Under the pieces are notes generated by a model that was not told the DNA's origin, did not search any database, and saw only the letters and a program-made list of their open reading frames with translations. Of a stretch of 64,000 nt of DNA, positions 14,819 through 59,967 are shown in pieces. A program made the translations under genes and the position numbers. Source of the stretch: Okeania sp. SIO2B3 (GTDB lineage: Bacteria; Cyanobacteriota; Cyanobacteriia; Cyanobacteriales; Microcoleaceae). Within the stretch, counting starts at the first letter, position 1; each line of letters opens with the position of its first letter. The DNA lies in the NCBI RefSeq assembly GCF_010672525.1, contig NZ_JAAHGH010000028.1:1-64000 (forward strand), given 5' to 3'.

Positions 14819-14982
14819 TTACCGAATAATTAATAATTAATAATTAAATAATTCAGGTTTAAAGCCTCCCCTTTTAAGGGAAAAAAAAGTGCTAGGATAT
14901 TTCCTGATATTCAATTCTCTCGGTTTTAACCAGAGGTAATTATCAATTATCAATTATCAATTATCCATTATCCATTAATGAA
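14819..14982 (+). repeat. GTTTAAAG-core interspersed repeat
   Basis: Begins ttaccgaataattaa, has the core ggtttaaagcctcccc with a CCCCTTTTAAGGG palindrome, then ggttttaaccagaggtaatt, and ends with ATTATCA/ATTATCC heptamers and attaatgaa. The central block of the long form is mostly deleted. Confidence 0.65.
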
Positions 14983-17849: not shown

Positions 17850-18329
17850 ATGATAAACCAACCTAACAAAGAAGCAATTATTATCCGTACTGAAAGAGGT
17901 CAGACGATTTCAGGTACTCGTATTACTGTCTATAACATTATGACAAAATAAAAGCTGAGTATCCACCCAAGTACATTCGCGATGCTTTCGACCTTACTGA
18001 GGAGGAACTCCATGGTGTTCTTTCTTATATTATAGCAGTCGAAGCAAAGGTTAGGACAGATAAAAAGCTTAAAACTCAGATAACGTAATACTTTTCCTTC
18101 TTCCTTCTTCCCTCTTCCTTCTTTCTTCTGCTATAAAAACCATCAAGTAGAAGTTGAGACAGAGTATCAGGAAGTTTTGAGGATAGCAGAAGAAATTCGA
18201 GCATATTCGGAAGAACAGAATCGCGATCGCTTGGCAAAAATTGCGACCAGTCCTCCCCGTCCAGGATATGAAGCAGTTCGAGTTAAACTGATAGAAAGGA
18301 AAACCAAGGGTCAAGTAAGGAAAAAATGA
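17850..18329 (+). pseudogene. DUF433 antitoxin-like gene broken by a frameshift and a MITE
   Basis: Starts MINQPNKEAIIIRTERGQTI and SGTRITVYNIM, typical of cyanobacterial DUF433 proteins (small DNA-binding proteins, often antitoxins paired with PIN-like toxins). A one-base deletion near 17942 (ATGAC where ATGGAC is expected) shifts the frame. The correct frame then reads KIKAEYPPKYIRDAFDLTEE and ELHGVLSYI, is interrupted by a MITE at 18033-18133, and resumes with HQVEVETEYQEVLRIAEEIR to KGQVRKK. Removing the MITE and one TA restores SYIKNHQVE exactly in frame. No partner toxin is visible nearby. Confidence 0.75.
18033..18133 (+). mobile_element. MITE-2 copy inserted in a DUF433 gene
   Basis: A 101-bp element with ends TAGCAG and CTGCTA, flanked by TA on both sides (18031-18032 and 18134-18135). 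Inside is a TTCCTTC heptamer array. A second copy lies inverted at 56163-56264. TA duplication is the habit of IS630/Tc1-type elements; the source transposase is not in the window. Confidence 0.75.
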
Positions 18330-18478
18330 TGATTTTGGTTGACTACAATTGTTGATTTTTGGTGTCTTACTCTGACATCTGTTTCCTTACGTTCTATTTC
18401 AGCTCTTTTTAGCTCTTTTTTTGTAAGATAAATCCTGAATAAAGGATAGAATTAAATATAGTTTATTTTTTAAATTGG

Positions 18479-56078: not shown

Positions 56079-56162
56079 AAATCATAAATCCTCAAAATTA
56101 ACCTCAATATTAATTTGATTTCAAAAGAACATATAGAATTTGTAGGTTTTTTTTAATTTATA

Positions 56163-56264
56163 TAGCAGAAGAAAGAAGGAAGAAGGAAGAAGGAAGAAGG
56201 AAAAATCTTGCGTTGTTTGAGTTTTAAGCTTTTGATATGTCCGCGCCCTTTGCTTCGACTGTTA
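56163..56264 (-). mobile_element. MITE-2 copy 2
   Basis: A 102-bp element, inverted relative to 18033-18133, with ends TAGCAG and CTGTTA and TA on each side (56161-56162, 56265-56266). Shared interior: the GAAGGAA heptamer array and gttttaagcttttgat. Confidence 0.75.
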
Positions 56265-56266
56265 TA

Positions 56267-59486: not shown

Positions 59487-59721
59487 GTAAGCATTTCCTG
59501 CGGAATGCTGCGCAAACAGCTATTAGCTCTCAGCTATCATAAGGGGGTTTAAATGAATATAGACTGTTTCAAGCTTTGAGGCGTAAGTATAAATTATGGC
59601 TCAATTAGTAAAGTTTTTCTCTAAAACTAAAAGCAATAGCTGTTAACGCAGTTCCTCCGCAGGAGGCTGGCTGATAACGCAGTTCCGACCATAGGAGGCT
59701 AGCTGACGGCTGAATACTTAT
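59487..59721 (+). mobile_element. MITE-4 copy with perfect 8-bp target duplication
   Basis: A 235-bp element beginning GTAAGCATTTCC and ending GAATACTTAT (right end mutated). Direct repeats TAAAATTC at 59479-59486 and 59722-59729 fix its borders. Confidence 0.82.
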
Positions 59722-59759
59722 TAAAATTCAAACAAAGCCAAATTTTTCCTTCTTCTTTC

Positions 59760-59967
59760 TTACCGAATAATTAACTAATTAATAATTAAATAATTCTGGT
59801 TTAAAGCCTCCCCTTTTAAGAGGAAAAAAGCGGTCGAGGGGTGGATGGGTTTCCTAACCATATCCAATGGACCAAGAGAAGAAATAATATTTCCTTATAT
59901 TCAATTCCGTAACGGTTTTAACCAGAGGTAATTATCAATTATCCATTATCAATTATCCATTAATGAA
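59760..59967 (+). repeat. GTTTAAAG-core interspersed repeat, long form
   Basis: Nearly identical to the copy at 28075 in the second half (tccaatggaccaagagaag, ttccgtaacggttttaacc, ATTATCC heptamers). Followed by a TTCCTTC array to about 60013. Confidence 0.7.

Follow-up and report, generated by a model that had tools for sequence, protein, structure and literature searches.

The DUF433 gene considered here lies in the window, by which we mean the whole stretch of 64,000 nucleotides analysed from the cyanobacterium Okeania sp. SIO2B3, and it is interrupted by a 101-bp sequence that begins with TAGCAG and ends with CTGCTA. The locus raises the question of whether this sequence is a mobile element and, if so, into what target it inserted, what could have moved it and how recently it arrived. 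On the evidence set out below it is very probably a non-autonomous MITE that derives from an ISY100-like IS of the IS630/Tc1-mariner group, about 974 bp long, and that recently inserted at a TA in the gene. The features of the locus, all on the plus strand, are the following.

17850 to 18329, plus strand: DUF433 gene, disrupted by the element as well as by a frameshift further upstream (reading frames; intact orthologues L116 and L117)
17942 to 17950, plus strand: cluster of differences from both relatives that removes one base net (alignment of the window with L116 and L117)
18031 to 18032, plus strand: duplicated target TA, left copy (single TA at the empty site of L116 and L117)
18033 to 18133, plus strand: 101-bp MITE, subfamily A (empty-site comparison; matches in the host; nine identical copies in genome G003)
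18033 to 18058, plus strand: left terminal repeat, which together with the flanking TA forms the 28-bp end TATAGCAGTCGAAGCAAAGGTTAGGACA
18095 to 18127, plus strand: tail of CTTCCTT-type heptads, differing in length between copies (copy lengths; a one-heptad difference at a shared copy)
18128 to 18133, plus strand: right end CTGCTA, a short inverted repeat of TAGCAG (recognisable in 50 copies)
18134 to 18135, plus strand: duplicated target TA, right copy (empty-site comparison with relatives)

The preliminary description took restoration of the reading frame as proof of the element borders. Removal of 103 bp (the element and one TA) does join LSYI to KNHQVEVETEYQEV in one frame, and removal of 101 bp leaves the two halves out of frame; a frame is restored by chance in about one case in three, however, so that proof from one reading frame alone is too strong a claim, and the site was therefore sought in relatives. 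When four other genomes of the genus were searched with the left flank, one match was found in each of G001 (L116) and G004 (L117), and none in G002 or G003. Sequence alignment showed that both matches are the empty orthologous site, ...CTTATATTAAAAACC..., with a single TA, whereas the window has a TA (18031-18032), the element from TAGCAG to CTGCTA (18033-18133) and a second TA (18134-18135). The flanks of the window and of G004 are 98% identical over 965 bases to the left of the site and 97% identical over about 1.6 kb to the right. These two relatives, with an uninterrupted gene and one TA, demonstrate both borders and TA duplication directly, and the location, the TAGCAG and CTGCTA ends and the TA-type integration proposed earlier are all borne out.

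ISY100/ISTcSa, an IS630/Tc1-mariner element of Synechocystis, likewise inserts at TA and duplicates it, and moves by cut-and-paste, the cleavage being exact at the 3' ends but displaced inward by two bases at the 5' ends (PMC2170065). A footprint would be expected after excision of this type, and the uninterrupted sites of the relatives are therefore most plausibly sites as they were before insertion; the "precise removal" of the preliminary description is thus apt for the state before insertion but not for a likely product of excision. The window copy has several features of a MITE, being 101 bp long (at most 33 codons), devoid of a transposase gene, bounded by TAGCAG/CTGCTA inverted repeats and flanked by a TA target-site duplication with an empty counterpart in L116 and L117, and it is probably a recent insertion at TA. 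The hexamer TAGCAG alone is undistinctive, with 49 occurrences in the window against 27 expected.

Further empty sites were sought among 118 copies that have both ends and enough flanking sequence, and two copies in G003 proved to have unoccupied counterparts, which again support the borders. One lies in a tandem array in which three other intact units lack the element and have a single TA at that place. The other lies in a palindromic repeat, for which three of six element-free copies (L218, L063 and window positions 14825-14949) have a single TA and the other three of the six matching copies have different bases at the place. This repeat, of the CCTCCCCTTTTAAGGGG type, is itself dispersed (window 14825-14949, L218, L202 and L063), the G003 copy being the one that the MITE interrupts. 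Candidate empty sites at L040, L069/L179, L021/L084, L025/L071, L017 and L027 were dropped as local duplications or for gaps at the junction, and L120 was left out of the count, since TG rather than TA stands at the site in its paralogous unit.

The assignment of the interrupted gene to DUF433 was confirmed by its intact orthologues, L116 (139 aa) and L117 (125 aa), which match PF04255 with E values of 1.1e-7 and 8.8e-8 and scores of 32.3 and 32.0 bits, above the family cut-off of 23.6. DUF433 homologues with a natural insertion at this place had been named as evidence that would count against an inserted element, and none was seen in the aligned relatives L116 and L117 or in the more distant L123 and L131, the last of which shows a one-codon alignment gap at this place, offset nearby. 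That the gene has been hit twice also holds, as the second lesion, at 17942-17950, is seen against both relatives and leads to a stop at 17949-17951. It had been described as a one-base deletion; the net loss of one base stands, but the loss is not a clean one, for as aligned it is accompanied by five substitutions within about ten bases. Downstream, at 18326-18352, a gene starts with MMILVDYNC and then stops; its G004 counterpart starts with MIILVDYN, and in the window and in G004 alike the stop falls within ten codons. We take this start to belong to the usual DUF5615 partner of a DUF433 gene, and 18326-18352 is probably that partner in a decayed state. Since this gene start is stopped in both genomes, the loss of the DUF433 gene, which is broken as sequenced, has probably been tolerated with little consequence.

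The element belongs to a large family. In the host genome (10.0 Mb in 249 contigs) a 19-bp left-end pattern, with at most 2 mismatches allowed, found 163 left ends, against 1 for a reversed control pattern, and 42 matches to the MITE were obtained with 40 of 359 candidates scored; the many dispersed copies are those of a MITE. The core of the element is present in at least four named Okeania genomes (SIO2C9, SIO1I7, SIO3B5 and O. hirsuta), and the 19-bp end was found in 11 of 27 genomes chosen elsewhere in the family and order, with a maximum of 184 in G016, the reversed control giving 3 hits in all over those 27 genomes. Copies without flanking TA had been named as a refuting observation, and TA was therefore counted in copies picked by their interior. 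Among the matches listed there were 76 such copies, from which 10 unrecognisable left ends and 26 unrecognisable right ends were excluded; TA was present at 60 of the 66 remaining left ends and at 44 of the 50 right ends. Most ends thus have the expected TA, but a few (6/66 on the left and 6/50 on the right, among the same matches) do not. Length ranged from 80 to 142 bp in the 48 listed copies with both ends, 101-102, 94-95 and 81 bp being the commonest values, with others between.

The window copy appears to be young. In G003, nine copies are identical to it over the full 101 bp and two more differ by one base, and all 11 have TA on both sides, the left TA being part of the search pattern. 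In the host, none of the other matches scored (n=41, from 40 of 359 candidates) exceeds 93% identity to it, and only one other copy falls within three mismatches over 79 bp, at exactly three. Alignments of at least 500 bases between the host and G003 are 71-98% identical, orthologous-looking ones mostly 91-96%, with a weighted mean of 90% over 36.8 kb, paralogues included; a copy inherited since the two genomes split would therefore be expected to show about four to nine differences per 101 bp. Set against this expectation, the identical copies are most simply explained if the element multiplied recently in G003-like cells and its arrival in the host was recent too, and the young copy was probably passed between Okeania species.

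Two further members of the family lie elsewhere in the window.

56161 to 56266, minus strand: second MITE copy with its flanking TAs (nhmmer E 9e-31)
59705 to 59763, plus strand: weak fragment of the MITE family, without recognisable ends (nhmmer E 7e-6)

The preliminary description held that the second copy, placed at 56163, confirms mobility. The nhmmer match upholds the existence of the copy, but not its value as proof of movement. It is 88% identical to the first copy and has a counterpart at the equivalent position in SIO2C9 (L055), which is shorter by one 7-bp unit and carries a few substitutions; the L055 alignment takes in the left flank and the element together with the next 8 bases, and similarity resumes about 0.4 kb further on (L055 versus L019). 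Judged from this comparison, the copy at 56161-56266 is an old insertion shared with SIO2C9, and it shows a change in length of the heptad tail in place rather than recent movement.

The search for a source of the transposase, suggested earlier in the form of IS630-type elements with such ends, led to the sister genus g7, where an IS630-type IS with TA at its ends (G016, G021, G025, G028 and G010) starts with the same end. The G016 IS is 974 bp long, and its own two ends have 27 of 30 bases in common; the MITE left end agrees with them at 26/30 and 27/30, with the G028 right end at 26/30, with the G025 left end at 28/30 and with the G021 left end at 20/30, ungapped. The MITE thus shares an end with an IS of autonomous type on its left side, but on the right nothing of the repeat beyond TATAGCAG is left before the heptads, and the agreement of this right end with the IS end (20/30, ungapped) is no better than that of IS630 cousins with other ends (16-21/30). 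Two pieces of the G021 copy match PF01710 (HTH_Tnp_IS630, E 5e-10) and PF13358 (DDE_3, E 1e-13), and the G028 copy has DESG, LDNASF and YSPDLNEIE (with the NEIE motif) in one frame, with 34 residues counted by eye between DNASF and NEIE, the interval examined for DD34E-type catalytic spacing. Together with the agreement of the ends in G016, G025 and G028, the G021 domains support the IS630/Tc1 class proposed earlier, and this IS of the sister genus is the probable parent. None of the seven IS copies translated is whole when read without allowing for programmed frameshifting, as each is interrupted by stops or frame breaks or lacks an end. The assemblies of G010 and G025 each have three contigs that break off after 52-120 bp of this IS, a pattern that repeated elements cause in draft assemblies.

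Within Okeania, searches of five genomes with N-terminal and DDE queries found no intact copy of the parent-type IS. The N-terminal query gave no match in the host and only cousins of 35-53% identity in the other four genomes, and the DDE query gave three host matches of 30-55% identity, each with an internal stop. G001, however, holds a remnant in which a left end of the same kind (26/30) is fused to transposase interior that is 88% identical over 34 aa, and which looks like an internal deletion of the sort from which MITEs arise. The first IS630 loci considered as parents (PF13358 and NCBIfam NF033545) were set aside because, where TA-flanked end pairs could be discerned, their ends differ (TCAAATCCGGTAGCAT, CCAATTTAATATGAAG, TAGCAATGTGCGCTGG and others). 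L164/L178, which has a MITE-type end beside an IS630 ORF, was also rejected; the matching region in G001, G002 and G003 begins about 100 bp further in, without that end, which was probably contributed by a MITE variant that landed upstream. The region itself (L164/L182, L178, L179, L180 and L181) is conserved at 91-98% across the five Okeania genomes, and the N-terminal-only, IS630-like ORF in L164, 148 aa long, may encode a stand-alone DNA-binding protein of transposase origin.

Four other accounts of the element were weighed. It might be a passive repeat, spread by a hairpin or by tandem-repeat expansion rather than by transposition. The right half is indeed an array of CTTCCTT heptads, the copy shared with SIO2C9 differs by a single 7-bp unit, and genomes without the left end (for example G012, G014, G017, G019 and G022) contain heptad-only matches; but exact empty sites with TA duplication refute this account for the window copy, and the IS630-type left end and the identical sequence at nine other sites in G003 speak against it as well, leaving it extremely improbable. 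The presence of that identical sequence in another genome, and of only one other host copy within three mismatches over 79 bp, could be taken to mean that a repeat was misjoined into the DUF433 gene during assembly. Such an artefact is very unlikely, as the flanks, compared with G004 for about 1.0 and 1.6 kb, are 97-98% identical to it and an exact TA duplication at the junction is not expected of a chimera. TA-containing targets are also duplicated by transposases outside the IS630 family, such as the IS427 group of IS5, and one of these could have been the mover. Our transposase search covered the IS630 family, and the identity of the left end with IS630 ends at 26-28 of 30 bases makes a mover from another family hardly credible.

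A further account concerns which transposase works in Okeania now and is compatible with a MITE of IS630/Tc1-mariner origin. The working enzyme could come from another IS630 subfamily, whose ends have just the outer TATAGCA and inner TTAGGACA boxes in common with the MITE, and would then cross-mobilise it. In favour of this arrangement, the exact parent was not found intact in G000 to G004, yet G003 holds 11 identical or one-base-different copies, and IS630 elements with TATAGCA-N13-TTAGGACA ends occur in Okeania genomes G002 (L278, 962 bp, with breaks) and G003 (L282/L328, broken). Against it, the remnant in G001 indicates that the parent was once in the genus, a multi-copy IS is easily lost at the contig breaks of draft assemblies, and the ends of these cousins match the MITE left end at only 18-21/30 (the MITE's own right end does so at 20/30). 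We regard cross-mobilisation as a serious possibility, though one with less than an even chance. Slightly more doubtful, and offered tentatively, is the broader proposal that the family crosses species and keeps jumping without a transposase of its own, driven by other IS630 subfamilies that share TATAGCA-N13-TTAGGACA, while transposition of its slippage-prone heptad end seeds heptad minisatellites across Okeania genomes.

For the MITE as we understand it, derived from an IS630/Tc1-mariner IS, the likely course of events can be outlined. The transposase of the sister-genus IS, or of a close IS630 cousin, would bind the element ends in trans and pair the full left end with the reduced right end, whose use is presumed here; it would then cut the element out and paste it into a TA, which is duplicated, and the young copy would have arrived from another Okeania species after the two separated. 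A studied member of this group is ISY100, which has a DDE transposase with two helix-turn-helix motifs and end repeats of 24 bp (PMC2170065). ISY100 codes for its own transposase, whereas the window element, at 101 bp, codes for none. The 974-bp g7 IS resembles the MITE at the left end and in having TA at its ends; unlike the MITE, it has a transposase gene (defective in the copies examined) and, in G016, the full repeat at both ends, where the MITE right end is reduced. ISY100 itself is about 1 kb in size.

Nezha and other cyanobacterial MITEs are, as described in PMC10969869, likewise short and non-autonomous. The BrickBuilt MITE of Porphyromonas gingivalis likewise has a block of tandem (minisatellite) repeats between small inverted-repeat ends, with 23-nt units and 19 copies in strain ATCC 33277, always intergenic, according to its description (PMC4596501); the Okeania MITE differs in its 7-bp units, its well over 100 copies and the position of the window copy within a gene. 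No publication pointing to this family was found by searches on cyanobacterial IS630-type MITEs, Okeania transposases, heptad repeats and the end sequence, which covered few subscription papers and the top results of long lists. The IS630-type MITE appears to be new, and the kind of element is already familiar. Slightly unusual are the full IS630-type end on one side with heptads behind a six-base end on the other, and also the high copy number and the young identical set common to two species. An argument from a reading frame has become a demonstrated insertion with a known target, known borders and a probable parent, and the heptad repeats of these genomes are linked to the tail of a mobile element. 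The young copies (nine identical and two one-base variants in G003, one in the host) offer a direct test bed for the movement of MITEs and their transfer between marine cyanobacteria; the general understanding of such elements is unaltered by the finding.

Several variant arrangements were seen in passing. At G000:C184:70596-71337 (L183), five left ends stand in tandem at spacings of 181, 181, 181 and 180 bp, and from the sequence this array is a unit of MITE plus flank duplicated head to tail. A second MITE subfamily (B; L189, L193, L198, L199, L233 and L242) has the same left end and a right end like TATAGCGCTACGCGC, which resembles another IS630 end (TATAGCACTACG) of L277 and L282. In the sister genus, L260, L261, L270 and L271 have a composite-looking right end, with TATAGCAGTCGAAG directly outside TATAGCACTACGGG, and one L270 copy of this end reads ACAGG, not ACGGG. 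Finally, the MITE copy at L194, on the minus strand, holds a nested repeat bounded by AGGACTTACGCA and GCGTAAGTCCT.
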